Below are positions 1-52,790 of a DNA stretch of 52,790 nt, in pieces. The stretch's first letter is position 1. Each line of letters begins with the position of its first letter. The DNA is from Deinococcales bacterium (GTDB taxonomy: Bacteria; Deinococcota; Deinococci; Deinococcales; JAAFIG01), in assembly GCA_013298595.1 (NCBI GenBank), contig JAAFIG010000031.1, forward strand, positions 1-52,790, given 5' to 3'. The notes below the pieces were generated by a model. The model saw only the letters and a program-made list of their open reading frames with translations, made no database searches and had not been told where the DNA came from. The position numbers and the translations under genes are program-made.

Positions 1-264
1 GAGATGGTAGCAACCGAAATTGTCCATGCTCTGATCGGCAGTATTGGTTTAATTCTGGCTGTGCCACTGGCAACCCTAATAGCAGCACGGCTTTTTGCTG
101 GTGGGCGCTTCCCAGGTTCAGATAATGTTCACAGCCATGCTCAAGTGGTTGTGCCACAAAGCCGTTCGGATGCTCTTGCTCGAGCGCTCGAAATGCCCTT
201 AGAAGAACCCAGACGCAGCAAACTCGAGATTAAAGCATTGCTCGAGGATAAGACACCAGATTGA
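1..264 (+). CDS. C-terminal end of a membrane protein, probably YibE/F family (cut by window edge)
   Basis: The reading frame is open from the first base, so this is the 3' end of a longer gene. The first visible residues read EMVATEIVHALIGSIGLILA, then continue as a hydrophobic helix ending near residue 32. A polar tail of about 55 residues follows. The ATEIV..L.GSIGL...VPL pattern is what I recall from the last transmembrane helix of YibE/F-family proteins, a multi-pass membrane family of uncertain function. An internal ATG at position 4 could be mistaken for a start. It has no ribosome binding site in view, and the frame has no upstream stop. Confidence 0.55.
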   Translation, partial: EMVATEIVHALIGSIGLILAVPLATLIAARLFAGGRFPGSDNVHSHAQVVVPQSRSDALARALEMPLEEPRRSKLEIKALLEDKTPD

Positions 265-301
265 AATGAAAGTACTCACAAATTGCCCAATAGAAAAGCC
301 G

Positions 302-307
302 TAAACT
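302..307 (+). promoter_or_regulatory. -10 box TAAACT for the leaderless start at 314
   Basis: TAAACT ends 6 nt before a GTG start that has no Shine-Dalgarno sequence. The spacing fits transcription beginning at or next to the start codon. Confidence 0.5.
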
Positions 308-313
308 AAGAAC

Positions 314-685
314 GTGCGTTTCTTGTTTAATGTATTGTTATTTATAGCTGTGGTTGCTGCCTTTGCTTGGTGGTTCAGAGCTTACTGGCAACGCTGGGGA
401 CGAATGATTCGTGGTGCTCAAAATGCGTTTAAGTTTGTTAAACAAGTGCGGGATGCCAACAAAAACGGTGGTTTTAGCGTATCTGGCAGAAGACCAGATA
501 CCCAAACACAAGATGCCAAAACAGTCAATGTGACTGCCAAGATGAGTGTTAAAGTTGGTTGTCCAATCTGCAAAGAAATGCTTTCTGAAGCCCAAGTTAC
601 TGCTTTACGTTCAGGTAGTGTGCGTTGCGAAGCAAGCCGTCAACACAACCTTGAATGCCCCTATTTTGGAAGGTCTTTGAACTAA
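314..685 (+). CDS. Small membrane-anchored protein with four cysteines, unknown function
   Basis: The product has 123 residues and I do not recognise the family. Residues 4-20 form one hydrophobic segment, followed by Trp/Arg-rich sequence that suggests an inside-facing anchor. The soluble C-terminal part carries CPIC (C83, C86), C105, H111 and C115, a spacing that could hold a zinc ion. The start is GTG, 6 nt after the -10 box TAAACT at 302-307, so the message may be leaderless. Its stop codon overlaps the next start by one base (TAATG), so it is probably translated together with the TPR protein. No CTCGAG occurs in this gene, unlike almost all its neighbours. Confidence 0.7.
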   Translation: MRFLFNVLLFIAVVAAFAWWFRAYWQRWGRMIRGAQNAFKFVKQVRDANKNGGFSVSGRRPDTQTQDAKTVNVTAKMSVKVGCPICKEMLSEAQVTALRSGSVRCEASRQHNLECPYFGRSLN

Positions 686-1713
686 TGCTCGAAAACCCCC
701 AAGCCCTAGAACACCAAGCTGTTGAGCAAAGACTCGAGCGAGCTAAAACACTGTTAAAAGCAGCAGTTACAAAACTTGAAGTCTTAGAAGCCCAGTGTTT
801 ACTAGGTGATGCTTTACATGAATTATCCGAGTATCAAGCTGCTAAGAATGCTTTTTTAGTAGCCGAACAACTGGCTCGATCCCTTGGGCAAAGCCGCTGG
901 ATTGCTGAGGCATTAACTGGACTTGTGCGAACAGCTGGTGGTTTTGCTGAATTTGCCAAAGTCCATAAAACTGCGCTTGAAGCTGTTGGATATGCCAGAA
1001 AAGCCAGTCATCCTGCAACGCTTGCTAAAGCCCTGTACTGGTTAGGTAACACCGAATTTTATATTGGTAACCTGACCACTGCCCGCAATACACTCGAGGA
1101 ATCTTTAAGCATTGCTAAAACTCAACCCGATCAATTACGCATCGCTGGTACCATGACTTTACTCGGACGAGTAGAAGGACAAGCAGGTCGGCAACAACGC
1201 TGTATTGAATGGCTAACTGATGCCTTAGAAATCAACCGTAACCTTGGGTATCAGCGTGGAATTGCCATGTGTTTAACAGGGTTAGCTTGGTCTAAATTAT
1301 TAATCGAACAATATATTGAATCTGAAAATTTGGCTCGAGAAAGTCTGGTTTTGTACCGCGAACTTGGTTCACGTTTTGCCATTGCCAATTCATTACTTAA
1401 TCTTGCTCATGCACTGATTGGGCAAGAACGAATTGTTGAGAGTAAAAAAGTTTTATCTGACGCTTTAGAAATCGGAATTCAAATCAATGCAAACAGTATT
1501 TTGCTCGAGTTACTGGTAGCGGCTGCCCGAACTGAAACCGATATTATCCGAGCCAGACAATGGATTCGTATTGCGGTTATGCACCCAAACAGCACATCTG
1601 AACTGAGAAGTTTCGCAGCACTTGATATCGAACGTCTCGAGGTTGCTTTGAAAAGTGTTGAAGAACAAGCGTTACAGCAAATTTTGCCAGATGTGCGAGT
1701 ACGGTTGAGTTAA
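685..1713 (+). CDS. TPR-repeat protein
   Basis: The product has 342 residues and is nearly all alpha-helical, built of tetratricopeptide-like repeats (for example ALYWLGNTEFYIGNLTTARN and the repeat after it). Such repeats usually form a scaffold for protein-protein contacts. No enzymatic or membrane domain is visible. I chose the ATG at 685 because GGAAGG lies at a good distance upstream and the codon overlaps the previous stop by one base. An upstream ATG at 655 would overlap the previous gene by 31 bases. The partner protein is unknown. Confidence 0.8.
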   Translation: MLENPQALEHQAVEQRLERAKTLLKAAVTKLEVLEAQCLLGDALHELSEYQAAKNAFLVAEQLARSLGQSRWIAEALTGLVRTAGGFAEFAKVHKTALEAVGYARKASHPATLAKALYWLGNTEFYIGNLTTARNTLEESLSIAKTQPDQLRIAGTMTLLGRVEGQAGRQQRCIEWLTDALEINRNLGYQRGIAMCLTGLAWSKLLIEQYIESENLARESLVLYRELGSRFAIANSLLNLAHALIGQERIVESKKVLSDALEIGIQINANSILLELLVAAARTETDIIRARQWIRIAVMHPNSTSELRSFAALDIERLEVALKSVEEQALQQILPDVRVRLS

Positions 1714-1755
1714 AGGTCAAAACTATGAGGCATGCCTTATGCAATTGCTTCTTGC

Positions 1756-1761
1756 TATGCT
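1756..1761 (+). promoter_or_regulatory. -10 box TATGCT deciding the pdxY start
   Basis: TATGCT ends 6 nt before the ATG at 1768. That ATG is also where homology to pyridoxal kinases begins, which favours it over the in-frame ATG at 1732. Confidence 0.5.
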
Positions 1762-1767
1762 GCTTTT

Positions 1768-2640
1768 ATGCAAAAACCACAGAATATTCTTTCGATTCAA
1801 AGTTGGGTTGCTTATGGTCATGCGGGCAATGCTGCAGCGGTTTTTCCTTTGCAACGCATGGGTTTTGAAGTCTGGGCGGTTCATACAGTGCAATTTAGTA
1901 ATCACACAGGGTATGGGGCTTGGACAGGACAGGTTTTTCCAGCCGAGCAGACTCGAGTACTGGTGCAAGGGATGCTCGAGCGTGGTGTGCTTGCCGAGTG
2001 TAGCGCGGTGTTATCTGGGTATATGGGAGCACCTGATACTGCCACAGCAATTCTCGAAGCTGTGGCGTTGGTTCAAGCTGCTAATCCTGAAGCTGTTTTT
2101 TGTTGTGACCCTGTGATGGGAGATGTTGGACGTGGTGTTTTTGTGCGCCCTGAACTACCCGATGTGATTCGTGATTTGGTTGTGCCAGCGGCTGATATTC
2201 TGACCCCAAATCAATTTGAACTTGAAATGCTGACCAATACAAAAATTGTGTCGCTTGAGGATGCGTTGCGGGCAGTTGCAATGCTTCGCTCGAGAATGCG
2301 AGCAAATGCGGTTGTGCTGGTTACCAGTCTCGAGCGAGCTGATGCACCCATCAACACTATTGAGGTTTTAGCTGTCTCGAGTGACGGAGCATGGTTGGTG
2401 CAAACGCCAAAAATAGCACTTGACCCACCACGCAATGGTACTGGTGATTGCATCACTGCACTATTTCTTGGGCATTACTTACAAACCAAAAGTATCAAAA
2501 TTGCCCTCGAGCAAGCCGTGGCTGGTTTGTACGGTTTACTCGAGATGACCCATCAGCTTAACACCAGAGAAATCCAGTTGATTGCAGCTCAAAACGAATT
2601 TGTACACCCCTCAAACGTTTTTGCGGCTCGAGCACTTTAG
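1768..2640 (+). CDS. pdxY: Pyridoxal kinase, PdxY type
   Basis: This is a ribokinase-fold kinase that phosphorylates pyridoxal with ATP in vitamin B6 salvage. The N-terminus [20 protein letters not shown] followed by [10 protein letters not shown] is diagnostic for PdxY. The C-terminal anion-hole motif NGTGD, with the catalytic Asp, is present. The length of 290 residues matches the family (about 287). The start at 1768 is supported by homology and by a -10 box 6 nt upstream; there is no ribosome binding site. The stop overlaps the convergent neighbour by 4 bases. Several PLP enzymes are encoded in this window (kynureninase, transaminase, MetY). Confidence 0.93.
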
Positions 2641-3263
2641 TTACTTAAACTCACAGCTTGTCCAAGCCAGACATCGGAGTGCAATTGTTCTAAACAAAAA
2701 TGGGCGACATCGGCTCGAGTTATTCTGGCTGAACTACCTGCTACAAGTTTACGGGCTGCTTGATAAGTGCCAATTGCAGGTTTGGTTTGTAGCCCACCTG
2801 GACGAGCAATGACAAACTCGAGTCCGCTGGTTTGTAGTAGGGTTTCTTGACAGAGTTTATCGGCAAATTCGTCTTTTAGCAGTAATGGCACAATAATAGA
2901 TTCAAAGAAAAAACCTGCTTGACCTTTGCTGTCACCAACACCTAAAGAAGTGATGGCAATAATTCGTTTTAGCCCACCAGCTTTCATAGCAGTAATAATA
3001 TTTTTGGTGCCATGCTCGAGCGGACGGGTTTTATCTCCTGGTTTGCCGCCCAAAGAAATAATCACAGCACTTGTGCCTTCGATTGTTTTAGCAACAGCCT
3101 TATCATCAAGTACATTACCCTCAAGAATTAGTAAGTTTGGGTGTTGCACCTCGAGTTTTGATGGTGTTCGAGCTAAGGCTTGTACACCATGACCACGCTC
3201 GAGGGCTTGGCGCACAATTTCGCGTCCTGTGGCTCCTGTGGCTCCAAAAACTGCAATTTTCAT
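2637..3263 (-). CDS. NAD(P)-binding Rossmann protein (NmrA/SDR-like)
   Basis: The 208-residue product begins [19 protein letters not shown], the GxxGxxG dinucleotide-binding loop of atypical short-chain dehydrogenases and NmrA-like proteins (PF13460). The later blocks [15 protein letters not shown] and [11 protein letters not shown] are also typical. Members include NAD(P)H-dependent epimerases, biliverdin/flavin reductases and sensor proteins, and the substrate cannot be told here. The ribosome binding site GGAGGT lies just upstream of the ATG. It is convergent with pdxY, overlapping it by 4 bases. Confidence 0.85.
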
Positions 3264-3321
3264 GGATTACCTCCTATGGTCAAAGTAGCTATGGTTTTAA
3301 AACTTTGACCGAGATTACTAG

Positions 3322-4548
3322 CTACGATTGAGTCGAACGGAAAGCCAAGCTGGGTCGTAATTTTTCGGGAATAATGCCATAGGCTGTTAGGCGTGCGGGT
3401 AATTCTCGGAGCAATGGCATTGAACGCAAGAATCTCAGTGCCGTTGGTACTTTTGCGCCTTGGTTTTTTTCAAACGCATCGGTGCTGGCTTTTTCGATGG
3501 CTACTTGTTGAGCTTGCAAAATAGCCACTTGCCAATTGCGGCGGCGCTGCACAGCTGCTAAGTGCCGAGTCTCGAGGCGATTCTCGAGAAGGAGTGTGGT
3601 AATGCTGTTGGCTGTAGCGATGGCATCTTGAACAGCAATGTTGATGCCAACACCACCAACGGGTGATATCACATGGGCTGCATCGCCAATCAGCAGTAAA
3701 CCGGGTTTGAACCAACGTTTTGCGCGACTAATTTGTACCGATAACAACGTGATTTGTGAGAAATCTGTTAATTGGGTCATTCGGTCGGCTAACCACGGAA
3801 TGCGTTCTTGGATAACGGTTTGGATGGTTTGTACACCTTGTTGTTTGGCTGCTTGAAAACCACCTCGAGGAATACTAAAACCCACTTGCCAATGATCGGC
3901 ACGGTCGAGCATCGCAATATAGTGCTTATCGGAAAGGTATAAATCGGTTTCACTATCAGGCGGGTCGGTGGGGTATTTGGGTAACTTAAACCACAATACA
4001 TCGGTGGCAGGCGATAATTGCAGCATTTCGGTTTGTGCCAGTTGGCGTACCTTACTAAAACGACCATCAGCCCCAATCACCACGCTCGAGGGTAAATCCA
4101 CTAAATTATTATTTTGCCGGTAGCGTACCCCCGTGATTTGTTGGTTCTGCTCGAGTAAAGCTTCAACTCGAGCACCCATAACTATTTGAAAATTTGGGTA
4201 TTGCTTTGCATGTTCAAGTAAAACCTCGAGCATCTCACTTTGCCGAATTAAAGCAATGAATGGATAACGATATTTTGATGTGGTCATATCGTAAGCTAAA
4301 AAATTTTCGGTTGGTGTGCGGTAGCGAAAACTGGTGGCTTTGACATGCTCGAGGTTGAAGATGTCATCGATCAAACCCATTTGATCAAATAAATCGAGAA
4401 TAACGGGGTGCACTGTATCACCACGAAATTCGCGTTTGAAATCTTGGGCTGCCTCGAGTAGCGTGACTGGCACACCATTGCGAGCAAGAATCAGTGCCAA
4501 AATCATACCAGCAGGACCTCCACCGACAATACAAACTGTTTGCTGCAT
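3322..4548 (-). CDS. FAD-dependent aromatic-ring-type monooxygenase
   Basis: The product is a 408-residue class A flavoprotein monooxygenase of the UbiH/PHBH superfamily. It has the N-terminal GGGPAG dinucleotide loop (CIVGGGPAGMILALILARNG), the middle motif GADGRFSKVR, and the FAD-ribityl motif LLIGDAAHVISPVGGVGIN. Such enzymes hydroxylate aromatic substrates with NAD(P)H and O2. Substrate unknown; detoxification of a drug or phenolic is a reasonable guess because a TetR-type regulator sits next to it. The start follows AAGGAG. The 18-bp palindrome at 4567-4584 lies directly in front and probably binds that regulator. Confidence 0.85.
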   Translation of the reverse strand: MQQTVCIVGGGPAGMILALILARNGVPVTLLEAAQDFKREFRGDTVHPVILDLFDQMGLIDDIFNLEHVKATSFRYRTPTENFLAYDMTTSKYRYPFIALIRQSEMLEVLLEHAKQYPNFQIVMGARVEALLEQNQQITGVRYRQNNNLVDLPSSVVIGADGRFSKVRQLAQTEMLQLSPATDVLWFKLPKYPTDPPDSETDLYLSDKHYIAMLDRADHWQVGFSIPRGGFQAAKQQGVQTIQTVIQERIPWLADRMTQLTDFSQITLLSVQISRAKRWFKPGLLLIGDAAHVISPVGGVGINIAVQDAIATANSITTLLLENRLETRHLAAVQRRRNWQVAILQAQQVAIEKASTDAFEKNQGAKVPTALRFLRSMPLLRELPARLTAYGIIPEKLRPSLAFRSTQS

Positions 4549-5283: not shown

Positions 5284-6798
5284 TTATTCCCATTCAATCG
5301 TGGCTGGGGGTTTACTGGTGATGTCATAAACCACTCGGTTGACTTCGGGTACAGCATTAACAATTTTATTACTAACAAACTCGAGAAAATCGTGGGGCAG
5401 TCGCGCCCAGTCGGCGGTCATACCGTCTATGCTGGTAACAGCACGAAGTGCAACCAAATAACTGTAGGTGCGTCCATCACCCATGACACCTACACTGCGA
5501 ACAGGTGTAAGCACGGCTAAAGCTTGCCAGACAGCATCGTATAAATTCCATTCTTTTAAGCCACTGATAAAAATGGCATCCACCCGTTGCAAAATATCAA
5601 TTTTTTCTGGAGTGATATCGCCCAGAATACGGATACTCAGTCCTGGACCTGGAAATGGATGGCGCAAACGAATCGCATCGGGTAATCCAAGCACCTTAGC
5701 AATTTCGCGTACTTCATCTTTGAATAACAACCTGAAAGGCTCGAGCAATTCAAATTTCAGATCGTCAGGTAAACCACCAACATTATGATGGCTTTTAATG
5801 TTAGCAGCACCGATCCCACCGGCACTTTCGATCACATCGGGGTACAAAGTGCCTTGGGCTAACCAACGATAACCTTGAGATTCCAAGGCTCGAGCTTCGC
5901 GTTCAAACACCCGAATAAATTCTCGTCCAACAATTTTGCGTTTACTTTCAGGGTCGGATACGCCCTCGAGTGCTGATAAAAACGGTTTTGAGGCATCCAC
6001 CACTCGTAAATCGGCATTGGCAAGAGCAGTTTCGACTTCGCTGCGTTCGTTGAGACGCAGCAACCCATGATCCACAAAGACAGCGGTTAATTGTGTGCCA
6101 ATGGCTTTTTGCAACAATAATGCCAAGGTGCTCGAGTCCACACCACCAGAAACTGCCAGCATGACTTTATCTGAGCCAACTTTGTTGCGAATATCGGCAA
6201 TCAGTTCGTCTACAATATGCTCGGCTGTCCAATCGCGGGTTACACCAGCAATCTCGAGGAAATTCTCCAGCACCAATGCACCTTTTGGTGTGTGTACAAC
6301 TTCTGGGTGGAACTGAATACCAAAACGTTGCAACTCGAGATTTTCAAAGCCTGCAATGGCAGTGTCGGTTGTGCTACAGGTAATGCTGCAATGACTGGGA
6401 ATACTTTTTACGCCATCACCGTGACTCATCCAAGCAACAAATTCACCTTCAATACCTTTGAATAATGTGCCAGCATAACTCGAGAGTACAGATTTGCCGT
6501 ACTCTCGCACAGTTGCAGCTTCTACCTTGCCACCAAGGTGTTGTGCTAAGAAATTCATGCCATAACAAATGCCTAAAATCGGCATGGCTAACTCGAGTAC
6601 CCCAGCACTTGGTTTGGGTGCATCGGTATCATAAACACTGTTTGGACCACCCGAAAGTACAATGGCTTTTGGCTCGAGTTTGAGAATTTCTTCAAGTGGT
6701 GCATTGCTGGGTAGTATCATGCTAAAGGCGTTTAATTCACGGAAACGCCGAGCAATTAAACGCGTAAACTGAGAACCAAAATCAAGAATAACAATCAC
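5284..6798 (-). CDS. guaA: GMP synthase (glutamine-hydrolysing)
   Basis: This 504-residue enzyme makes GMP from XMP, ATP and glutamine. The class I amidotransferase domain (residues 1-185) has nucleophile C78 in GICYGMN and the H164/E166 pair in IQFHPEV. The ATP-pyrophosphatase P-loop SGGVDS is at residues 217-222, and the C-terminal dimerisation domain ends in the conserved ATIEWE. The family usually has YGMQ after the nucleophile; here it is YGMN. The start is GTG, 7 nt after a -10 box (TACACT on the minus strand), with no clear ribosome binding site. Confidence 0.97.
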
Positions 6799-6805
6799 GT
6801 GCTCG

Positions 6806-6811
6806 AGTGTA
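6806..6811 (-). promoter_or_regulatory. -10 box TACACT for guaA, overlapping CTCGAG
   Basis: On the minus strand TACACT ends 7 nt before the GTG start of guaA. Its last two bases are the first two of a CTCGAG (6802-6807). No convincing -35 box is visible. Confidence 0.5.
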
Positions 6812-6844
6812 CCCTTTTTAGGTCAACAACTCGAGTCTTTAAGT

Positions 6845-6881
6845 TTGACAAGACACGGATAAAAATAGGCTGGCTTGTCAA
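6845..6881. repeat. Inverted repeat in the guaA upstream region
   Basis: TTGACAAG (6845-6852) and CTTGTCAA (6874-6881) are exact inverted repeats 21 bases apart. They lie in the 358-base gap between guaA and the gene at 7157. Read on the minus strand, one arm contains TTGACA, a perfect -35 hexamer, but no good -10 follows at 16-18 bases. Function unknown. Confidence 0.4.
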
Positions 6882-7008
6882 GCGAGACAGACCTGCTTTT
6901 ACAAAACTCAAATGCGTTGTAGGCAAGAGCATATTGATATTCAAATATTAGAAATAATTTTCTCGAGTTCACACATTAGATTTCCTGCGAAAGTTAATTC
7001 AATGTTAG

Positions 7009-7031
7009 GGTAGGGCGACCACGCCCCTACC
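7009..7031. repeat. GC-rich hairpin in an AT-rich intergenic stretch
   Basis: GGTAGGGCG and CGCCCCTACC form a stem with one bulged base and an ACCA loop, followed on the plus strand by AATATTTTTTG. It looks like a terminator, but no plus-strand gene precedes it. It may be a small interspersed repeat; a similar AGGGCGA...TCGCCCT hairpin lies at 47398-47426. Confidence 0.45.
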
Positions 7032-7144
7032 AGACAATATTTTTTGTAATCTCCTCCTTTGCCAAGACGTATTTGTCCACTTTCGTAAGAAGCCTATTAT
7101 TGTTAGCAATTTCTGTAAGGACATGCACACATATTGTTCTCGAG

Positions 7145-7150
7145 TAACAT
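7145..7150 (+). promoter_or_regulatory. -10 box TAACAT for the gene at 7157
   Basis: TAACAT ends 6 nt before the ATG and directly abuts a CTCGAG at 7139-7144. There is no ribosome binding site. Confidence 0.45.
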
Positions 7151-7156
7151 GGTTGT

Positions 7157-7654
7157 ATGTCGTGGTTTGCTCGAGTGATGTTTTTGTTGTTATTTGCAGC
7201 GTCTAGTGCTTTTGCTCATGCGGTGGCTGTGAATTTAGATGCGTATACCGAGAAACAACAATTGGTTGTTTTAATGAATGGCACAATGGGTCAGCCAATT
7301 AATGGGGCTGTGCTGGCTTTTAGTGTGTTAAGCAGTTCGGGAGAAATCGCTGGTGGTGCTTTGAAGATGGTGGCAGATGGTGAGTATCGTGCTGCTTTGC
7401 CTATTATCCAAGCGGGTACATACACTCTCAAATTCCGCGATACAACCTTTCCCCAAGAAGCCCTAGAAATTGGTAGGAGTGTAGATTTTCCTTTGCAGAA
7501 CGCGGTACGACTTTTATTGCCTGCCTCGAGTGCAGGGCAACCCGCCATTGCAGTATTGGTGGGTTTAGCAACATTACCTGTGATTATTGCCATGCTGGTT
7601 TTACTTGTGGTTTTGTTTGTGCGCCCTAAACCCAAACCCGAGGCAATTGAATAA
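7157..7654 (+). CDS. FixH-like exported/membrane protein paired with a polyferredoxin
   Basis: The product has 165 residues. The first 20 or so look like a signal peptide ending AFA. A beta-rich extracytoplasmic domain follows, including ADGEYRAALPIIQAGTYTLKF, which resembles FixH/YtkA-like domains. A C-terminal membrane helix (about residues 129-153) ends in a short basic tail. The stop overlaps the next start by one base (TAATG), so it is translationally coupled to the membrane 4Fe-4S protein. FixH and CcoG (FixG) are the known pair in cytochrome oxidase copper handling, so a similar membrane redox role is inferred. The family call itself is tentative. Confidence 0.6.
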   Translation: MSWFARVMFLLLFAASSAFAHAVAVNLDAYTEKQQLVVLMNGTMGQPINGAVLAFSVLSSSGEIAGGALKMVADGEYRAALPIIQAGTYTLKFRDTTFPQEALEIGRSVDFPLQNAVRLLLPASSAGQPAIAVLVGLATLPVIIAMLVLLVVLFVRPKPKPEAIE

Positions 7655-9096
7655 TGCTTCTGAACCGCTTAGATGTGCTGCGTGTCCCGTTGTTGGGTGC
7701 ATTTCTGCGCTGGCGGTACTCGAGATTTGTTTTGCAAGTGCCATTGTTGTTACTGGCAATGATTGCTGTTTTTGATGGTTTGACGGGACGGCAATTGGCA
7801 CCAAGTAACACGGCAACTGTGGCAGTTTGGGTGCATTACCGTGGTTTGGTAGCACTGATATTAGCCATTTTTGGCAATCTTTTTTGTGCAGCTTGTCCTT
7901 TAATGTTAACTCGAGGGGCAAGTAAGTTTTTTAAGCGTTTTTTGCCACAGCTCGAGTATCCAAAAGCGTTACGAAATAAGTGGTTGGTACTTGGTTTGAC
8001 GGCTCTTTTTTTATTTTCCTATGAATTCTTTGATTTATGGGCAAGCCCGTTTATCACAGCTTGGTTGATTCTTGGATATTTTATCGCTGCGCTGTTAGCA
8101 GATTCGATTTTTCCAGTAGGAACTTTTTGTCAATATATTTGCCCATTAGGAAATTTTAATTTTGCTTTATCCAGCAGCAGTCCATCTCAGATTATGGCTC
8201 GGGATGCGGATGTTTGCACAGCTTGCGAGGGGAAGTACTGTCTGAATGGTCGGATTGAAACCAGAACGACTCGAGCACCCGTACTTGGCAATCGTTCCGA
8301 GCATGTGTTGTTACAACTCGAGCCTTTACAAACCTTACCTGTTGGCACGTTCCCTGGTTGTGAAACCAATTTATTTGTACCTACCATCAGCAGCAACGAG
8401 GATTGCACATTGTGTCTTAATTGTGTTCGAGCTTGCCCCCACGACAATGTGGCATTGGCGTTGCGTAACCCATTACAAGAGGCGATTCTCGAGAAACCCA
8501 AAATAGATTGGACTTGGTTTTTGGTTTTTTTAATGTGGGGTGGTTTACTCAATGCTTTTGCGATGATTCCGCCATATTATGCACTGGCAGCTTGGTTATC
8601 GACTGTGCTGGGTACGCGGAACGAAGCTTTGTTACTGCTTTTGATTATGACTGGTTTTTTAGCCCTTGGTTTTGCTTTGACTGTCTTAGCCGCTCGAGCT
8701 ACCCGAGGTTCTTTGCGAGCATGGGTTGGGGTGTTGTATCCACTTGCTTTAGCAGCTTGGGGTGGGCATTATTTATTTCATTTTATGACAGGCTACAGTA
8801 CTTTATTACCCAATATAGTTAATGCTTTCATTCGAGGCGGATTACCACTCGAGCCATTACCTAGTGCTGCGATACCACGTTTAGATACTATTTTCCCATT
8901 TCAAGTTTTTGTCACATACCTTGCTTTAGCAGCCAGTTTTTATGTGATTTATCGTAAAGCCGCCAATCAAGAAACAGATGCTCGAGTGATTGTGCTTAAA
9001 ATGCTGCCGTTTCTGATTTTAGCTTTGATTATAAGTACCATCACAATTTTAATTTTTGCTCAACCAATGCAGGCTCGAGGCAGTTTGTTGCAATAA
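7654..9096 (+). CDS. Multi-pass membrane 4Fe-4S polyferredoxin (NosR/NapH/CcoG-like)
   Basis: The product has 480 residues and multiple membrane helices. It carries the paired CAACPLML (near residue 72) and FCQYICPLGNF motifs typical of NapH/NosR-type membrane proteins. One complete 4Fe-4S motif is present, CTLCLNCVRACPHDN. An earlier block, CTACEGKYCLNG, lacks the CP end, and GCETNLF sits between. The order CxxC....C / GCE..LF / CxxCxxCxxxCPHDN is a recognised variant in this superfamily. It probably passes electrons across or within the membrane. The coupled FixH-like protein suggests a link to oxidase or metal-centre assembly. No terminal oxidase gene is in the window. Confidence 0.8.
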   Translation: MLLNRLDVLRVPLLGAFLRWRYSRFVLQVPLLLLAMIAVFDGLTGRQLAPSNTATVAVWVHYRGLVALILAIFGNLFCAACPLMLTRGASKFFKRFLPQLEYPKALRNKWLVLGLTALFLFSYEFFDLWASPFITAWLILGYFIAALLADSIFPVGTFCQYICPLGNFNFALSSSSPSQIMARDADVCTACEGKYCLNGRIETRTTRAPVLGNRSEHVLLQLEPLQTLPVGTFPGCETNLFVPTISSNEDCTLCLNCVRACPHDNVALALRNPLQEAILEKPKIDWTWFLVFLMWGGLLNAFAMIPPYYALAAWLSTVLGTRNEALLLLLIMTGFLALGFALTVLAARATRGSLRAWVGVLYPLALAAWGGHYLFHFMTGYSTLLPNIVNAFIRGGLPLEPLPSAAIPRLDTIFPFQVFVTYLALAASFYVIYRKAANQETDARVIVLKMLPFLILALIISTITILIFAQPMQARGSLLQ

Positions 9097-37491: not shown

Positions 37492-37499
37492 ATGATTTT

Positions 37500-39215: not shown

Positions 39216-39233
39216 ATGCTCATCTCGAGACCG

Positions 39234-39239: not shown

Positions 39240-39247
39240 GGTAAACA

Positions 39248-41148: not shown

Positions 41149-41170
41149 GTGCGTTATCATAGGGTTTCTA

Positions 41171-41195
41171 GGCGCAGGTTGCTGCGCTTTTTTTT
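41171..41195 (+). terminator. Intrinsic terminator after rodZ
   Basis: AGGCGCA pairs with TGCGCTT around a GGTTGC loop, followed by a run of T (41188-41195). Confidence 0.8.
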
Positions 41196-41208
41196 ATGAG
41201 GTTTGATT

Positions 41209-42603: not shown

Positions 42604-42609
42604 CAAAGG

Positions 42610-42650
42610 AAGGTAAAAAACGAGGAAAGACTGCTTTCCGTCTTTACCTT
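42610..42650. terminator. Nested hairpin between rimO and the diguanylate cyclase
   Basis: AAGGTAAA (42610-42617) pairs with TTTACCTT (42643-42650), and inside it GGAAAG pairs with CTTTCC around ACTG. It lies between convergent genes and could terminate in both directions. Confidence 0.6.
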
Positions 42651-42655
42651 TGCCT

Positions 42656-44608: not shown

Positions 44609-44614
44609 GACAAT

Positions 44615-45919
44615 TTAGGGTAGCACAGTAATCTGATCTGGTGTGTTCAAAATCACTTCGTAATAATCGCCATACAGTTGTACCCGTCCACGAATTTGCA
44701 CCCGTTTACCTAAATAAGCTTGTGGAAAGGGTTGCTCAAAACTATCGTAAGCTCGAGCAAAAACCACAGCTCGAGGAGCCGTACTGCCCTTACCAAAATT
44801 GAGGAACGCCACTGCGTCACGGCGTTCGACTTCTTCGACCAGACCTTCAAAAATACCTGTGCGTCCAACAAACTCACCTATTTTACGGGCATCTTGCACA
44901 GTCTCGAGTGGGGCTAAACCATACGGGTTGATATCCATGCTTTTACTAATATCAGCTTCGATTTGTGCTACTAAGGCATCCACCGCAGTTGTAGCCGTGT
45001 CACGCTCGAGAATAACGCTCAGTTCACGGTTCGCATTGATGCTGTTACCACTGAGGTTGATACTACCAATTAACGCTTTGGTTTTGTCTGCCACGATTAC
45101 TTTGGCATGTACATAATTGCTCAGTAAATATTTGACTGTTACACCTGTTTGCCGTAAACGCTCAGCACCCGCAATAAAGTACGTGTCGGTCAGTTCGTTT
45201 GGCGCTCCAACAATGGTCACTTTGACCCCGCGCTGAGCGGCTGTACTTAGTTCACGAATGGTTTCTTCATCTGCCATTGCTTGTTGCTCGAGTAATAAAC
45301 TTTGCCTAGCATTACGAATTAAATCAAGAATTTTATCTCGAGCATTGCCGCGCACTGTGCCATTGGATTTAATTTGACTCGGACTCCAAACCAGTTTGGC
45401 ATCGCGTAAATCAATATCATCGCCGTTCCAATCGGCATCAAAGACCTTGGCAATTTCTTGTACCAAGGCAGGTTCATTCAACGCTACTTGGTATTCACGA
45501 TTTGCCGAAAAACTCGAGCCTGTGATATTGGCAGTTGAAATGATGGCTTCTTGATCGTCAAAAACAAAACTTTTTTCATGCACAAAAACAAACTTAAATG
45601 CCTTACTGAGTTGCACATTTAAACCAGCCGCTTTGAGTTGTAAAAAAATGTTGGTATTGCCACCAATGGAACCGCTTGGTTCACGCTCGAGCAAAATTCG
45701 TACATCCACACCGCGTTTTGTGGCAGCAGCTAAGGCTTCAATTACATCTTGGCGTGAATCTGTGAACAAATAAATTTTATGACGAATACTTTTTTTGGCG
45801 GCATTAATTCGCGTAAGAATCGGCGCAATACCGTCTTGTGGTTGAATAAATAATTTCGGTGCAGCCAAGGCTAAACCAGAAAGTAGTACAAAAACCAGCA
45901 GAGCTTGAATCCATTTCAT
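44615..45919 (-). CDS. Secreted phospholipase D-like protein (two HKD motifs)
   Basis: The product has 434 residues. Residues 1-19 form a signal peptide (LVFVLLSGLALA). Two HxKxxxxD-type motifs (VHEKSFVFDD and VHAKVIVADK), each followed by a small Ser/Asn-rich turn (TANITGSS, SINLSGNS), define the PLD superfamily, which includes phospholipases and nucleases. The C-terminal 100 residues look like an OB-fold (GKRVQIRGRVQLYGDYYEVIL), which favours nucleic acid binding. Export of a nuclease for DNA uptake or scavenging is possible. A -10 box (TAGAAT, minus strand) ends 6 nt before the ATG. Confidence 0.88.
   Translation of the reverse strand: MKWIQALLVFVLLSGLALAAPKLFIQPQDGIAPILTRINAAKKSIRHKIYLFTDSRQDVIEALAAATKRGVDVRILLEREPSGSIGGNTNIFLQLKAAGLNVQLSKAFKFVFVHEKSFVFDDQEAIISTANITGSSFSANREYQVALNEPALVQEIAKVFDADWNGDDIDLRDAKLVWSPSQIKSNGTVRGNARDKILDLIRNARQSLLLEQQAMADEETIRELSTAAQRGVKVTIVGAPNELTDTYFIAGAERLRQTGVTVKYLLSNYVHAKVIVADKTKALIGSINLSGNSINANRELSVILERDTATTAVDALVAQIEADISKSMDINPYGLAPLETVQDARKIGEFVGRTGIFEGLVEEVERRDAVAFLNFGKGSTAPRAVVFARAYDSFEQPFPQAYLGKRVQIRGRVQLYGDYYEVILNTPDQITVLP
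44617..44622 (-). promoter_or_regulatory. -10 box TACCCT for the diguanylate cyclase
   Basis: TACCCT (minus strand) ends 8 nt before the ATG at 44608 and overlaps the end of the upstream PLD gene. Confidence 0.35.
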
Positions 45920-45925
45920 AACAGT

Positions 45926-45931
45926 ATTCTA
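45926..45931 (-). promoter_or_regulatory. -10 box TAGAAT for the PLD-like gene
   Basis: TAGAAT (minus strand) ends 6 nt before the ATG at 45919. There is no ribosome binding site. Confidence 0.5.
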
Positions 45932-46006
45932 TCCTAATGGTGTGGTTTATTTGAGTTTTGAGCTGCTTATTTTGTGGGCGAATTTCTGCGTTGACACACA
46001 TGAAAT

Positions 46007-47116
46007 TTACTCGAGACCTGCCAAGAACGCCTGCACTCGCTCGGTTAATCTGGCTGTCTCGAGCAAAAAAGCATCGTGTCCATGAGGGCTGTTTAATTCC
46101 CAGTACTGCCCATTTTGTACGGTTTCAGCAATTTCTCTGGCTTCGGCAGGTAAGTACAATAAATCACTCGAGATGCCAATACTTAATAGTGGTACTGCTA
46201 TTTGGGCTAGTTGCTCTGGGCTAATATCAAAACGATCCATGGCTTTGGTGATGGTGATGTAACTATTGGCATCAAAACGCTCAAGTAATCGTGCGCCTTG
46301 ATGCTCGAGATAGGTTTCCATAGCAAAACGTGTGATATCGGTTGGGCTAGGACGACGACCTTGGGTTAAACCAAAGGATTCTGGGCTGCGGAAAAACAAG
46401 GTGGTAATGGCTCGAGCTAAAGCTAAACCTTGTGGTTGGGATGTGTATTTGCCATTTTTGTAATCAGGGTCGCCTTGAATTGCCATTCGGGCTAAATGAT
46501 TAAAAGTAATTCCCCAAGCACTATGACGCGGTGGTGCACCAATGATAATGGCGGCAGCGATTCGTTCAGGAAAGGCTCGTACCCACTCGAGGGCTTGCAT
46601 TCCACCCATGCTGCCGCCAACCACAGCTTGAATGCGTTTAACGCCTAAATGCTCGAGAAGTGCTGCTTGGACTCGCACCATGTCGCCAATGGTGATTTCA
46701 GGGAAATTACTGCCGAAAGTGCGGTTGCTACTGGGGTCTACACTGGTGGCTCCTGTGCTGCCATAACAACCACCAAGCACATTGGCACAAACCACAAAAT
46801 GTGTGTCTGTATCGAGCATCCGACCAGCACCTAAGGCATCTGACCACCAACTCGAGACACTGCTCGAGCCAGTTAAAGCATGGCAAACCACCACGGCGTT
46901 ATCGGCAGCAGCATTTAAGACACCATAAGTGCTAAATGCCACCCGCACCATGTTTAACGAACCACCTAACTCGAGTTTTAATGCTTCACGAATAAACAGT
47001 GTTGTGTGTCGAACATCAGAATCCGATGGTTTTGGTTCGGGAAACAAAACCCGTACTTCAAAATCGCCAAGGCGTTCGATTTCAAAGTTTTGTTCGGGTT
47101 TAAAAGCAACAGTCAT
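46007..47116 (-). CDS. metX: Homoserine O-acetyltransferase
   Basis: The enzyme acylates homoserine for methionine synthesis. The product has 369 residues and the alpha/beta hydrolase fold. The nucleophile serine lies in VVGGSMGGMQALEW, and the catalytic His in SPHGHDAFLLE. The block HALTGSSSVSSWW is typical of MetX. It is the last gene of the metY operon, coupled by ATGA to a small CxxC protein, and so lies under the SAM riboswitch. The acyl donor (acetyl versus succinyl) cannot be read from the sequence with certainty. Confidence 0.94.
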   Translation of the reverse strand: MTVAFKPEQNFEIERLGDFEVRVLFPEPKPSDSDVRHTTLFIREALKLELGGSLNMVRVAFSTYGVLNAAADNAVVVCHALTGSSSVSSWWSDALGAGRMLDTDTHFVVCANVLGGCYGSTGATSVDPSSNRTFGSNFPEITIGDMVRVQAALLEHLGVKRIQAVVGGSMGGMQALEWVRAFPERIAAAIIIGAPPRHSAWGITFNHLARMAIQGDPDYKNGKYTSQPQGLALARAITTLFFRSPESFGLTQGRRPSPTDITRFAMETYLEHQGARLLERFDANSYITITKAMDRFDISPEQLAQIAVPLLSIGISSDLLYLPAEAREIAETVQNGQYWELNSPHGHDAFLLETARLTERVQAFLAGLE

Positions 47117-47379
47117 AAACGCTCCGCAAACTCAAAACAAGGAATACAAAACTCGAGCAAAATCGCTTCGATTTCTTGTTGTAACACCTGTTTTGCTGCT
47201 TCACTCGAGGATAGTTCATACTGCAACTGTAATTGCTCGAGATCAAGATGCCAAGGTAAATTTGCTTGGTCACATGCCAACTTACCACGTGGGAATCGTC
47301 GTCGCTCGAGACCAATCAAAGCGCTACTAGCAATAAATTTTCTGCGTCCAGAACAAATAGGACAGTCATCCTCGAGCAT
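47113..47379 (-). CDS. Small CxxC protein inside the methionine operon, unknown
   Basis: The product has 88 residues with two Cys pairs, CPIC (C6, C9) and CIPC (C78, C81), plus C36. The two pairs could form one zinc site or a redox pair. The middle is basic, then helical (LEQLQLQYELSSSEAAKQVL). I do not recognise a family. GAGGT lies before the ATG. The stop overlaps the metX start by ATGA, so synthesis is tied to MetX. Placement between metY and metX under a SAM riboswitch suggests a sulfur- or metal-related role. Confidence 0.75.
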   Translation of the reverse strand: MLEDDCPICSGRRKFIASSALIGLERRRFPRGKLACDQANLPWHLDLEQLQLQYELSSSEAAKQVLQQEIEAILLEFCIPCFEFAERL

Positions 47380-47397
47380 TTATAACCTCGGTGGGTT

Positions 47398-47426
47398 AGG
47401 GCGAAGTTGTTAGCCAACCTCGCCCT
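47398..47426. repeat. Hairpin between metY and the small CxxC gene
   Basis: AGGGCGA and TCGCCCT (7 bp) plus an inner GTTG/CAAC form a stable hairpin without a U tract. It may tune expression inside the operon or be a small interspersed repeat like that at 7009-7031. Confidence 0.45.
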
Positions 47427-47432
47427 GAATGT

Positions 47433-48824
<1,392 letters not shown>

Positions 48825-48878
48825 TCAGCAGACGTTTTTTATGTGTTGTTTAGGCTAAAACCAGTAGCTAAAAATTTA

Positions 48879-48904
48879 CGCCCCTCCTTTCTCGAGAAGG
48901 GGCG
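48879..48904 (-). terminator. GC-rich hairpin in the riboswitch expression platform
   Basis: CGCCCC and GGGGCG pair around a bulged arm that holds TTCTCGAGAA, itself containing CTCGAG. On the minus strand it is followed by AAATTTTTAG, a broken U tract. It is the likely SAM-induced terminator. Confidence 0.6.
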
Positions 48905-48932
48905 CATGTTTTTAGCGTTGGAATCCCATTCT

Positions 48933-49136
48933 CTTATCTATCCGCTTTGCGCGGCTGGATTTAGCACCGAATGGGTTTGAAATATGCTCGAGCGTTACAC
49001 ACCAAAGTCAGTCACCATTCGGTGGCTGAACATTCGATTTGTACACATTGGTTTGAGCATAGATTCCCTGGTTGCTGCGACGCTGGTTGTGCAGTTGCAC
49101 AGTTTCGAGCCAGTCTCTTGCGTCGCTCTTGATAAG
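48933..49136 (-). ncRNA. SAM-I (S-box) riboswitch with enlarged P2 and P3 arms
   Basis: On the minus strand P1 is CTTATC (49131-49136) with GATAAG (48933-48938). AAGAG follows the 5' arm. P2a is CGACG/CGTCG, P2b is GAG-ACTGG-CTC with the pseudoknot loop, and the P3 base is GCAACC with GGTGC. The pseudoknot partner GCTAA and a P4 hairpin (CCGC-GCAAA-GCGG) complete the fold. Two additions are unusual: a TGTGCA/TGCACA hairpin inside P2 (49088-49101) and a P3 arm of about 100 bases (48969-49069) with its own stems. It should control metY, the CxxC gene and metX. Confidence 0.95.
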
Positions 49137-49257
49137 GTATTTGGCACGTTTTGCAACGCACGGGTTCTGATGAACTTGTTAGAACTGTAAAATAAGTTGA
49201 GTAGTTTTGTCAAGGATGTATTTGGTGTTACTCCGATGAATAGCATGACTTTCCGCG

Positions 49258-49263
49258 TAGAAT
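49258..49263 (+). promoter_or_regulatory. -10 box TAGAAT deciding the kinase start
   Basis: TAGAAT ends 7 nt before the ATG at 49271, which fixes the start there rather than at the TTG one codon upstream. Confidence 0.5.
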
Positions 49264-49270
49264 ACATTTG

Positions 49271-52126
49271 ATGAGCGTATCTGTTGCACCACTCGAGGCG
49301 TATCTCGAGCAAATCACCAAAACCCGTGGGTTAGCGGCAACTGGGCAGTTGATTGCTCGTACAGCTTTAACTTGGTCTGGTGCTTTATCGGTGCGGGTGT
49401 TGTTGTTGGTTTCCGAGCGCTTAGAAACAGTGGCGGTGTCTAATGCTGCGGGTGTCTCGAGTTTACTGGGTGATGGTTTTCGCTTTGATGATATCCCAGC
49501 CGATGCAGCGCTCGAGGGAGCATTACCATTAGAGGCGCGAGGACGGCATTTAGGGTTTTTGCAAATCCGAGGTGGTAGCATTCTCGAACCAAGTTTTGTG
49601 GCTGTCAGTGCGGTTGCTCTTGAAGCAGCACGGTTGTCACGCGATGCGGTGCGTCGAGAAAAAGAAACCAAGGCATTATCAGAATTATCAAAACGGGTTT
49701 CAAATAGCTTAGATTTAAATGCGATTCTCGAGGAAAGCCTTGAGTTTACTGTGCAGGCACTTGGTTTAGAACGTGGGTTGCTTGGGTTATTTTCAAATAC
49801 TTCGGAGTTGGGCGCAGAAGCAAAAGGGTATTTTAAGTTTGCTTTTGCTGAACTCGAGGCAGATGAAGTGCTGAGTATCTCAGCCGAGAGTTTTGCACGC
49901 TTGCATCGTGGGCAACCTATCGTGCTTAACGATGTGAAAACATCTTCTCGCAGTTTTGCTGATACCCCACGTAAATTGGGTGCAGAAGCTTTTTTGATGT
50001 TACCACTGGTCTCGAGAGGGGAGACTTTAGGGGTTTTATATGCCGATGTCACCCGAACGGGTTTAGAAATTACAGAGCGCATGGTGTCTTTAGCCCAAGC
50101 AATGCTAGAAATTGCTGCACTGGCAATGGAAAATGCGCGTTTATACGCCTTAGAAAGTAATAAACGCCAAAATGCCGAAGGGTTGCGTTTAGTCATGCAG
50201 CGTTTATCCGAAAGCCTCAGTATTTCCGAAACCCTCGAAGCGATTCTCGAGACAGCTGTGCGTTTACTGGGTGCAACAGGTTGTGCTGTTTTTGAACGGG
50301 TGCGTAATGTACTCGAACCTCGAGCCAGTTATGGTGTGGAAAACGATGCTTTACTTGAACGGGGTATTGATTTTTTACTCGAGAGTACTGTGCAACGCGA
50401 AGTGATCGCCACAGCCGATTTATTAGCTGCACCGCTGTTAACTCGAGGCGAGGTCTATGGCGCACTGGCATTGTATTTTGCCGAGCAGAAAACGTTTACT
50501 CCAGACGAACTCGAGACGTTATCAGCATTTGCGGCTCAAGCAGGTGTGGCACTAGGGAATGCCCGAGTTTTTGCGGATGAAAACGCTTTGCTCGAGATGG
50601 CACGTTTGACCAGTGGTACACTTGAACTCGAGGAAGTATTAGCGCGAGTATGTTCTGAAGCGCTGATTACACTCGATTTAGAACGCAGTTTTATTGGTTT
50701 TTTTGATGTGCTTGATATGCAAGCCGAACGTGCCGAAATTGGTAAATTATACGCTCAGGGTTTTGAAAATGGTTTAGATGGCTTTATTCAACCCTTTGTT
50801 ATTGCCGATGAAGCCTTTGCTAAACTGATTCTTGAACTCGAGCCAATTGTCATTAACGAAGCCCAGGACGAATCGCTCGAGAACGAAGGTCCGACCTTAT
50901 TGGGTGCCCAAGCCTTTGTGGTTGCCCCAATTCAAGTTCAAGGACAAGTGTTAGGCATTTTATATGCCGATAGCACCAGAGCCTCGGAAATCACAGCTCG
51001 AGAAGCCCGTTTAGCGGCTGCTATTGCCCAACAAGCTGCTTTGGCTATTCAGAATGCTCGGCTGTACGAACGCTTACAGGCCCAGCAGCAGCAGTACAGT
51101 TTACTTGCCGAAGGTGCCACCGATTTAATTGCATCTACTGACCTTGAAGGCAACATTACGTATGCCAATAACGCAGCTCTTGAAATTCTGGGTTATGCCC
51201 CGAGCGAACTGCTTGAGATGCGCTTTGTGGACTTACTCGAAGCAGAAAGTGCCTTAGATGCCGAAGCAGCTTGGCGTACCATGCGCGATACCAACGCCCC
51301 AGATAGTACCTTTACGGCTCGAGTTCAGCGGGCTGATGCAACACTGGCGACACTCGAGATTAAACTTTCGGCGTTATACCGTGATGGTGCATTACAAGGC
51401 GGTCTGGTGATTGCTCGAGATATGTCCGAGCAGCAAAAACTGGCTGTGGAAATTGCCCAACGTGGACAAGCCCAAGCTCGAGCCAGCGAATTACGGTCGT
51501 TCCTGAGTTTATTTACCCAAGCCCAAGAAGAGGAACGTCGCCGTATTGCCAGAGAACTCCACGATGACACTGCCCAAACACTGGTTGCCATTACACGGCG
51601 TTTAGACCGACTCGAGACTGCCTTAGAAACCATGCCACTCGAGGCAGCTAAAGACCGAGTCCGAGATATTCGTTCGGATGTAGATGCTGCCATTGGCAGT
51701 GTACGGCGCTTCAGTCGAAATTTACGCCCCAGTGCTCTCGATGATCTAGGACTCTTACCTGCCCTCGAATGGTTATGCGAGCAGAGCAGCACGGATGCCC
51801 GATTAGAAGTGCAAGGCTCAGAACGTCGCCTCGAGACAGCTTTAGAACTGACAGTTTACCGAGTTGTCCAAGAAGCTTTAACCAATATCAACAAACATGC
51901 CCAAGCCAGTCATTGCGCTGTACGATTACGTTTTCTCGAGCACAGACTCGAAGTGGTTGTCCAAGACGACGGCAGAGGGTTTGCCACCCAAAACGGCAAT
52001 TTGCTACTCGAGGGACACCTTGGTTTAGCGGGAATGCGTGAAAGAGTTGCTTTGGCAGGTGGTGAAATGAAAGTCTCGAGTGAAGAAAATGCTGGTGCAA
52101 GCCTCGAGTTTATTTTCCCAAATTGA
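49271..52126 (+). CDS. Sensor histidine kinase: three GAF domains, PAS, HisKA_3, HATPase
   Basis: The product has 951 residues and no membrane segment. Three GAF-like domains (about 130-285, 320-445 and 455-605) and a PAS domain (about 615-730, TDLEGNITYANNAALEILGY) precede a NarL-type kinase core. The phospho-acceptor is H764 in RRRIARELHDDTAQTL. The ATPase has ALTNINKHAQASH (N box) and VVQDDGRGFA (G1 box). It would sense small molecules or redox state in the cytoplasm. No response regulator lies beside it in this window, so its partner is encoded elsewhere. The gene diverges from the riboswitch-controlled met operon. Confidence 0.93.
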   Translation: MSVSVAPLEAYLEQITKTRGLAATGQLIARTALTWSGALSVRVLLLVSERLETVAVSNAAGVSSLLGDGFRFDDIPADAALEGALPLEARGRHLGFLQIRGGSILEPSFVAVSAVALEAARLSRDAVRREKETKALSELSKRVSNSLDLNAILEESLEFTVQALGLERGLLGLFSNTSELGAEAKGYFKFAFAELEADEVLSISAESFARLHRGQPIVLNDVKTSSRSFADTPRKLGAEAFLMLPLVSRGETLGVLYADVTRTGLEITERMVSLAQAMLEIAALAMENARLYALESNKRQNAEGLRLVMQRLSESLSISETLEAILETAVRLLGATGCAVFERVRNVLEPRASYGVENDALLERGIDFLLESTVQREVIATADLLAAPLLTRGEVYGALALYFAEQKTFTPDELETLSAFAAQAGVALGNARVFADENALLEMARLTSGTLELEEVLARVCSEALITLDLERSFIGFFDVLDMQAERAEIGKLYAQGFENGLDGFIQPFVIADEAFAKLILELEPIVINEAQDESLENEGPTLLGAQAFVVAPIQVQGQVLGILYADSTRASEITAREARLAAAIAQQAALAIQNARLYERLQAQQQQYSLLAEGATDLIASTDLEGNITYANNAALEILGYAPSELLEMRFVDLLEAESALDAEAAWRTMRDTNAPDSTFTARVQRADATLATLEIKLSALYRDGALQGGLVIARDMSEQQKLAVEIAQRGQAQARASELRSFLSLFTQAQEEERRRIARELHDDTAQTLVAITRRLDRLETALETMPLEAAKDRVRDIRSDVDAAIGSVRRFSRNLRPSALDDLGLLPALEWLCEQSSTDARLEVQGSERRLETALELTVYRVVQEALTNINKHAQASHCAVRLRFLEHRLEVVVQDDGRGFATQNGNLLLEGHLGLAGMRERVALAGGEMKVSSEENAGASLEFIFPN

Positions 52127-52140
52127 GCTTAAAAGCTCAA
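52123..52140. terminator. Short palindrome spanning two convergent stop codons
   Basis: TTGAGCTT and AAGCTCAA are separated by AA and include the stop codons of both convergent genes. This weak hairpin may terminate both. Confidence 0.4.
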
Positions 52141-52622
52141 CCTGCGTCGCTTCTCGAGCCTAAGATGCGTTGCAGTAACTTATTTTTGCTGTCTTTGTAG
52201 CCTTCGCGTATGGCAATAGCTTCAAGATGCGAATCGGCAAGCAGTTGTAATTCGTAAACTGCGCCGTCGTAAGCACTTTTGGTCACACAATGCAGCAATC
52301 CTGGAAGGCAACCACTGGGTGCATCTGGGTGGACTCGAATGCTCGAGATGTAAACTAAGGCTTTGTCACCCATCCAAATGCTTTGGGCAAGGATAAAGCC
52401 GTAAACAGTGCTGGTCTCTGCGTCTACACTACTGGCTTCGACTGCCACAAAACTATGTTCGCTTCTCGAGTAAAACCGCAAGCTGGGTAAACTCGAACGT
52501 AGTCGTGCTTGGCGCTCTTTTTCGGGTTGGGAATCATAATTTTTGTCATCTAGCCTAGCAAGCTCGAGGTCGAGGGCTTGGATTCCTGGGTAGTCAGCTT
52601 CTTGTGGAGCGCGATAAATCAT
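52137..52622 (-). CDS. GNAT-fold protein, DUF1999-like
   Basis: The product has 161 residues. It begins MIYRAPQEADYPGIQALDLE, the usual GNAT beta1-alpha1 start, and SFVAVEASSVDAETSTVYGF and ALVYISSIRVHPDAPSG form the central strands. The last 40 residues are helix plus strand. It resembles the DUF1999 family described from Thermus/Deinococcus, whose substrate is unknown. A -10 box (TAAACT, minus strand, 52630-52635) ends 7 nt before the ATG. Confidence 0.7.
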   Translation of the reverse strand: MIYRAPQEADYPGIQALDLELARLDDKNYDSQPEKERQARLRSSLPSLRFYSRSEHSFVAVEASSVDAETSTVYGFILAQSIWMGDKALVYISSIRVHPDAPSGCLPGLLHCVTKSAYDGAVYELQLLADSHLEAIAIREGYKDSKNKLLQRILGSRSDAG

Positions 52623-52629
52623 TGGCTAT

Positions 52630-52635
52630 AGTTTA
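52630..52635 (-). promoter_or_regulatory. -10 box TAAACT for the GNAT-like gene
   Basis: TAAACT (minus strand) ends 7 nt before the ATG at 52622. There is no ribosome binding site. Confidence 0.45.
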
Positions 52636-52647
52636 CCGAAATTTTGC

Positions 52648-52709
52648 GCCCGCCGTTGGGGAGCGGCGGGCAGGGGAGGGGTTGGAGCGGCGCGTTGGGA
52701 GGTACGCGC
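52648..52709. repeat. GC-rich intergenic patch with two hairpins
   Basis: GCCCGCCG/CGGCGGGC (52648-52671) and GCGCGT/ACGCGC (52690-52709) are perfect stems in a stretch far richer in G and C than the rest of the window. It may be an interspersed repeat or the terminator of the minus-strand gene entering from the right. No U tract is seen. Confidence 0.5.
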
Positions 52710-52720
52710 TAAGTAAGGGG

Positions 52721-52790
52721 TCAATCGAAGATATCAAAGATGCGTCCGAGGGCGCTTTTTTTCTTTTTACCATAACGGTGGTCATCGTCA
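52721..52790 (-). CDS. C-terminal end of an unknown protein (cut by window edge)
   Basis: The minus-strand frame is open from the window edge to TGA at 52721-52723 and encodes an end reading DDDHRYGKKKKSALGRIFDIFD split over its last 22 codons. The His/Asp then Lys run followed by an amphipathic end looks like a real C-terminus. There is too little to name the family. Confidence 0.5.
   Translation of the reverse strand, partial: DDDHRYGKKKKSALGRIFDIFD

Follow-up and report, generated by a model that had tools for sequence, protein, structure and literature searches.

CTCGAG is iterated throughout the window and the genome

The window analysed here, a stretch of 52,790 bp, is one entire contig (G000:C25) of the MAG G000, which comprises 4,582,226 bp in 68 contigs and derives from an uncultured bacterium related to Thermus and Truepera. 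The nicotinamide/nicotinate phosphoribosyltransferase encoded in the window has 89% identity to its counterpart in a MAG labelled 'Deinococcales bacterium'. Over its whole length (positions 1–52,790) lies an array of 335 copies of the palindrome CTCGAG, distributed over genes, in all codon phases, and intergenic DNA, with no context beyond the six bases. Relative to the 10.4 copies expected from base composition this is a 32-fold excess, and the mean spacing is ~158 bp. Examples are found at positions 179–184, 223–228 and 241–246, the last pair being 18 bp apart, near the low end of the usual spacing; the longest CTCGAG-free gap in the gap list of the window extends from 18,131 to 19,035 (904 bp). 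A preliminary description of this DNA had put the over-representation at about 35-fold and had reported sites in all three codon phases and outside genes, and on each of these points it is borne out by the counts given here and below.

The enrichment is not confined to the window. Across the G000 genome there are 27,159 copies, one per 169 bp, and only 15 copies of the reversed word GAGCTC, which has equal composition. Raw counts are genome-wide; fine statistics were calculated on a 452,790-bp sample of G000 that consists of the window and twenty 20-kb stretches (L014–L033). In this sample 2,764 sites were observed against 45.9 expected from dinucleotides (first-order Markov), i.e., 60-fold, and the runner-up among hexamer palindromes, GATATC, reached 1.8-fold, the maximum for any other 6-mer palindrome under the same model. 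The counts exceed both the dinucleotide and the codon-pair expectation. The trinucleotide expectation is 193.9 sites, and the resulting 14-fold excess is an underestimate because the CTCGAG sites themselves set the trinucleotide counts. Words of seven and eight bases that contain CTCGAG occur at the frequency predicted by the hexamer and its flanks; the motif is therefore exactly six bases long, with sharp edges.

Other palindromes are extremely avoided in the same 453 kb: GGCC occurs 12 times (1,401 expected), ATGCAT 3 times (191 expected) and CGATCG 7 times (50.7 expected), and TTCGAA, GAGCTC, CTTAAG, GGGCCC, CGGCCG, CCGCGG and AGGCCT have zero copies. The set of avoided palindromes differs partly between relatives. 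Such avoidance suggests that restriction pressure is, or has been, heavy.

Sites in coding and intergenic DNA and the effect on proteins

In the G000 sample, the density of CTCGAG is 6.16/kb in coding and 5.63/kb in intergenic DNA, and the sites in codon phases 0, 1 and 2 number 1463, 580 and 449, respectively. Between genes, 464 sites were found against 6.4 expected, counting both strands, which is a 72-fold enrichment, and convergent, divergent and co-directional intergenic DNA have similar densities (5.5–6.2/kb). The equal density of coding and intergenic DNA, together with the uniformity among intergenic orientations, argues against a transcription signal.

Within genes, the hexamer is used far more often than predicted by codon usage outside the sites: 69.4% of Leu-Glu pairs are encoded as CTC GAG (1.6% expected), and CTCGAG is used in 63.6% of [SPTA]R[VADEG] (4.0% expected) and 39.6% of xS[SR] (1.2% expected). 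For Leu-Glu, the log-odds bias toward CTCGAG is 4.9. CTCGAG in G000 is not codon bias. The Leu-Glu dipeptide is itself over-represented in G000 (2.37-fold, with Glu-Leu at 0.93-fold), and protein sequences have therefore shifted; [SPTA]R[VADEG] is found at 1.34-fold in G000 proteins and the reverse order at 0.87-fold. The Leu-Glu excess was repeated in five further samples and was absent in the motif-less G004. Among relatives it measured 2.35–2.9-fold in dense genomes, 1.9-fold in G001 and 1.5-fold in Meiothermus-like samples, and it was near parity where the motif is weak or lost (1.05-fold in G004, 1.08-fold in one Thermus-like genome). A caution for genomes of this kind is that the frequencies of amino-acid pairs are dictated in part by DNA, and not by protein function.

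Sites are kept between species and exclude each other at short range

To follow individual sites between species, orthologous blocks were aligned to relatives, with generic hexamers in the same comparison serving as the control. The blocks included a stretch at 24,957–26,324 (forward strand), alignable by blastn to L006, L007 and L008, and the region 33,000–52,790 (forward strand), aligned piecewise to G005, G006 and G007. Over all aligned blocks, 58 of 87 window sites (67%) were kept as CTCGAG in G005-like DNA compared to 22% of generic hexamers (p ~1e-18), 26 of 42 (62%) compared to 13% in G006-like DNA, and 19 of 38 (50%) compared to 9% in G007. The sites are therefore conserved across relatives far above generic hexamers. 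Near-misses of the transition type are elevated (1.6–2.6-fold between genes) and those of the transversion type are not, a pattern which, intergenic DNA included, is as expected of decaying sites and not of efficient conversion of near-misses.

The positions of sites also depend on one another. In G000, 45 pairs of CTCGAG lie less than 18 bp apart, against 184.5 in a simulation of independence on the same proteins. A Leu-Glu pair is encoded as CTCGAG with a probability of 0.14 when another site is 6–9 bp away and of 0.38 at 12–18 bp, rising to ~0.6 at 18–40 bp and 0.78 beyond 60 bp, and the trend with distance is alike in the other reading frames. GC-matched inverted 6-mers showed no deficit of close pairs, either over the whole of the DNA or within its coding part. 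The repulsion is thus not caused by avoidance of mRNA hairpins, which would deplete generic inverted 6-mers over equal distances as well. Samples of G005, G006, G007 and G002/G003-like DNA likewise show exclusion below 20 bp, which was not seen in the small G001 sample; its range is ~40 bp in G000 versus ~20 bp in relatives. Gaps of more than 400 bp are fewer in G000 than simulated, and no extra demand for CTCGAG in long gaps was found at the synonymous level. No helical or nucleosome-like periodicity of spacing was seen in 10-bp bins. The deficit below 20–40 bp is the spacing expected of occupied sites, which would lie at least one protein footprint apart.

Distribution across the order

We surveyed 111 genomes of the order that includes Thermus and Truepera. 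Those belonging to the window's family (f1; G000, G005, G006 and G007) contain 5,900–6,500 CTCGAG per Mb, and those of a second family (f2) contain 7,700 (G002), 6,200 (G003), 3,600 (G001) and 300 (G004) per Mb. Groups g10–g11 range from 2,400 to 3,400 per Mb, group g12, which we take to be Meiothermus-like, from 1,390 to 3,070, and group g13, presumably Thermus-like, from ~630 to 1,090. Phase 0 accounts for nearly all of the mild Thermus-like enrichment, which is plausibly codon-driven. Among palindromes, CTCGAG ranks first throughout a first set of samples from relatives, except in G004 and the Thermus-like G044; in a second set it leads in about half, several of these samples being too small to judge. 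The enrichment is thus common to both closest families and graded over much of the order. The 2.3-Mb genome of G004 has 683 copies, which is background although its f2 siblings are dense; it is a natural loss of the motif, suited to comparative work.

Outside the order, a piece of the D. radiodurans megaplasmid MP1 (L381, positions 1–50,000) has 8 CTCGAG against 18.8 expected, and judged by this megaplasmid piece the feature may not extend to the Deinococcaceae. Among viral contigs, at least 120 stretches are dense in CTCGAG. The 80 loci measured are mostly GC-rich, and the best observed/expected ratio, 16 on a 3.4-kb piece, is nothing like that of the host.

Methyltransferases and XhoI-type nucleases

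The preliminary description had proposed a possible tie to a DNA methyltransferase (MTase), which is unsupported for G000. MTases of five Pfam families were searched for and then compared all-against-all, some weak matches being left out; the MAGs in this comparison are 91–94% complete, and specificity is not readable from sequence. No MTase of the five families was found to be common to the four f1 genomes (G000, G005, G006 and G007), and XhoI-type nucleases occur only at modest CTCGAG density. Three candidates for the writer were rejected. P0001 (G000:C11), which is TaqI/Eco57I-like, has no close relative elsewhere in the order. The C5 MTase L124 is present in G000, G005 and G003, and G006 and G007 are without a comparably close relative. 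The P0002 type, found in Meiothermus-like genomes (g12) and some Trueperaceae, is absent from f1 and f2 and was undetected in the g12 genomes G026 and G030, still high in CTCGAG.

P0002 itself (L053:1426–3114) belongs to a family of N6 adenine MTases of ~560 aa with an M.Eco57I-like C-terminus, a family that most Meiothermus-like genomes and many plasmids (matches L093–L096) carry. On plasmids these genes are followed by one for a ~300-aa protein without any Pfam match, possibly an undescribed type II nuclease.

The hexamer is identical to that of the XhoI/PaeR7I restriction-modification systems, but the XhoI-family nuclease (PF04555) had no match in G000, in any f1 or f2 genome or in Meiothermus-like genomes. 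It is present in 4 of the 111 genomes, all of modest CTCGAG density and none dense, and restriction normally lowers, and does not raise, site counts. In G108, which looks like Truepera and which we take to be Truepera radiovictrix, the XhoI-family gene (L385/L386) is interrupted into two overlapping frames and lies beside an intact-looking MTase. XhoI-like genes adjoin two different MTase types, that of G108 and an unrelated beta-class type in G012–G014. Relatives of the G108 type occur in G024 and G025 (47–49% identity), both of them without a reported XhoI nuclease, and a distant one (25% identity) in G007; the compared MTases of G000, G005 and G006 included none close to either type. These gene contents make a solitary CTCGAG MTase plausible for g11, but as the common cause across genomes it is not supported. 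Raw CTCGAG counts in G012–G014 are below those of their sisters, yet the CTCGAG/GAGCTC ratio is equal and the small-sample observed/expected ratio of G014 (3.2) matches that of G009 (3.1); we therefore make no claim that an XhoI nuclease lowers CTCGAG.

Relation to known iterated motifs

To our knowledge, neither a shift of the proteome nor exclusion between sites has been reported for HIP1 of cyanobacteria; CTCGAG shows both, the shift being measurable. The two motifs have much in common: like HIP1 (GCGATCGC), CTCGAG is a short GC-rich palindrome in genome-wide excess (32-fold in the window, 60-fold in the sample), found in coding and non-coding DNA with no single phase, lineage-wide, and lost in some reduced genomes (PMC4390886). 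Compared to the 300–2,700 HIP1 sites per Mb of cyanobacteria (PMC4390886), the dense genomes, with 5,900–7,700 CTCGAG per Mb, are 2–20 times denser and lie above the range, and the Meiothermus-like genomes lie mostly within it. CTCGAG is not HIP1 itself, the latter being cyanobacterial, the host here belonging to another phylum (Deinococcota) and CGATCG being avoided; it has six bases with sharp edges in place of eight, and no shared cognate MTase was found for it in f1 among the five Pfam families, candidate solitary MTases being seen only in G024 and G025. Alternate HIPs, which include the hexamer GGCGCC, each come with a cognate MTase (Elhai, PMC4390886). As in these cases (GGCGCC in Calothrix PCC 7103, GCsGC, rCCGGy), where a hexamer or shorter palindrome replaces HIP1 at high density, a short palindrome is highly iterated here, but the alternate HIPs are sporadic in single strains with a newly gained MTase, whereas CTCGAG is shared across the order and graded. 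DNA uptake sequences and Chi sites are likewise short motifs iterated genome-wide, from which CTCGAG differs in its density, palindromy and lack of orientation or intergenic bias. The best reading is a HIP-like palindrome in a new phylum; that it is independent of the cyanobacterial one, as had been proposed, is supported by the genome-wide excess, the distribution among relatives, the phases and the conservation. A literature search of incomplete coverage found no description of CTCGAG in a HIP-like role.

A proposed occupied chromosomal site

The observations to be explained are the enrichment, its independence of phase, its cost to proteins, the maintenance of sites between species, the order-wide distribution and the short-range repulsion. 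We lean, at about even confidence, to the explanation that CTCGAG is a chromosome-wide functional site, kept near saturation by a putative symmetric sequence-specific protein that binds or marks DNA and occupies it. This occupant would most likely be an abundant architectural or nucleoid protein, or possibly a solitary methyltransferase unlike the kinds recognised so far. The repulsion would be the footprint of the predicted bound dimer, ~20 bp, a second site inside one footprint bringing little benefit, and selection, not only biased repair, would maintain the sites. Among the possible roles, occupancy of the chromosome suits the data best, given the short-range exclusion between sites; uptake and a Chi-type role both fit poorly with how dense the sites are, with their palindromic form and with their being equally dense between genes. 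Against occupancy, the short-range exclusion could come from repair acting less near an existing site, which is the main alternative. The differing range of exclusion between species, its absence from the small G001 sample and the lack of extra synonymous demand in long gaps also speak against it.

Repair is central to the ratchet of Elhai, in which a CTCGAG methyltransferase would bias mismatch repair so that near-misses become CTCGAG and the sites need no function of their own. We place occupancy ahead of this mechanism, which we regard as a possible but distinctly less probable account. Every cyanobacterial HIP is accompanied by a cognate MTase (PMC4390886), relatives of the G108-type MTase lacking an XhoI gene occur in the dense G024 and G025 (47–49%), with a distant one in G007 (25%), and the exclusion could be an effect of repair tracts. 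However, no MTase of the five Pfam families is common to G000, G005, G006 and G007, and transition near-misses are raised (1.6–2.6-fold between genes), not depleted. Elhai's ratchet moreover saturates near one site per kb, a sixth of the density seen here, and requires a GC step, which CTCGAG does not have (PMC4390886).

A palindromic Chi-like or anti-nuclease signal, bidirectional since it is a palindrome, could instead mark host DNA as self and spare it in defence or recombination. The saturating density with avoidance of long gaps, the scarcity of CTCGAG in AT-rich, probably acquired genes and the restriction pressure evident from the other palindromes are in its favour, but it gives no reason for the repulsion over 20–40 bp, and the Chi sites known so far lack symmetry and occur at much lower density; we think it improbable. 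Still less probable is an uptake sequence favouring the import of kin DNA. Relatives in Thermus-Deinococcus are naturally competent and the motif is lineage-wide; however, CTCGAG exceeds the density of known uptake sequences (about 1 per kb) roughly tenfold, has no intergenic preference, and tends not to occur in close pairs, an arrangement common for Neisseria uptake sequences in terminators. An explanation by ordinary composition, by codon usage or by an assembly or linker artefact has next to no probability and for G000 is already refuted by these results: although the mild Thermus-like enrichment, nearly all in phase 0, is plausibly codon-driven, CTCGAG is enriched 72-fold between genes, GAGCTC of equal composition is nearly absent, and the sites recur at orthologous positions in separately assembled MAGs.

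A narrower form of occupancy, which we regard as possible but less likely than not, is that CTCGAG is the docking site of a putative undescribed sequence-specific architectural protein, approximately one per 170 bp, in a chromatin-like lattice independent of methylation. If true, bacteria would possess such a lattice, and its need for sites would be strong enough to rewrite the proteome. What HIP1 does is debated, in part owing to its description in a single phylum and its association with methyltransferases, and an independent, denser case in the Deinococcota helps to separate the palindrome from methylation. The series from about 7,700 per Mb to background, with a natural loss and no evident shared MTase, makes the matter testable in culturable Meiothermus or Truepera, and HIP1 genomes, too, can be examined for the two quantitative signatures seen here, site exclusion and the shift in amino acids.

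Site-poor genes

Site density varies with the GC content of genes, from 1.9/kb below 38% GC to 8/kb above 50% GC. Among the site-poor stretches are an E2/E1/JAB-type operon and a gene for a D12 methyltransferase, both of a sort that often spreads by horizontal transfer, and the AT-rich, site-poor genes are probably acquired. Since genes of this type are poor in CTCGAG, sites seem to build up after acquisition. The low-GC, CTCGAG-poor region at L016:8041–12184 contains three genes, one of which encodes an E2/ThiF(E1)/JAB fusion protein of 740 aa, and in gene content appears like a ubiquitin-like antiphage operon. At L033:4268–6238, inside a 2.3-kb site-free gap, a 656-aa FG-GAP repeat protein is encoded with zero CTCGAG and zero Leu-Glu.
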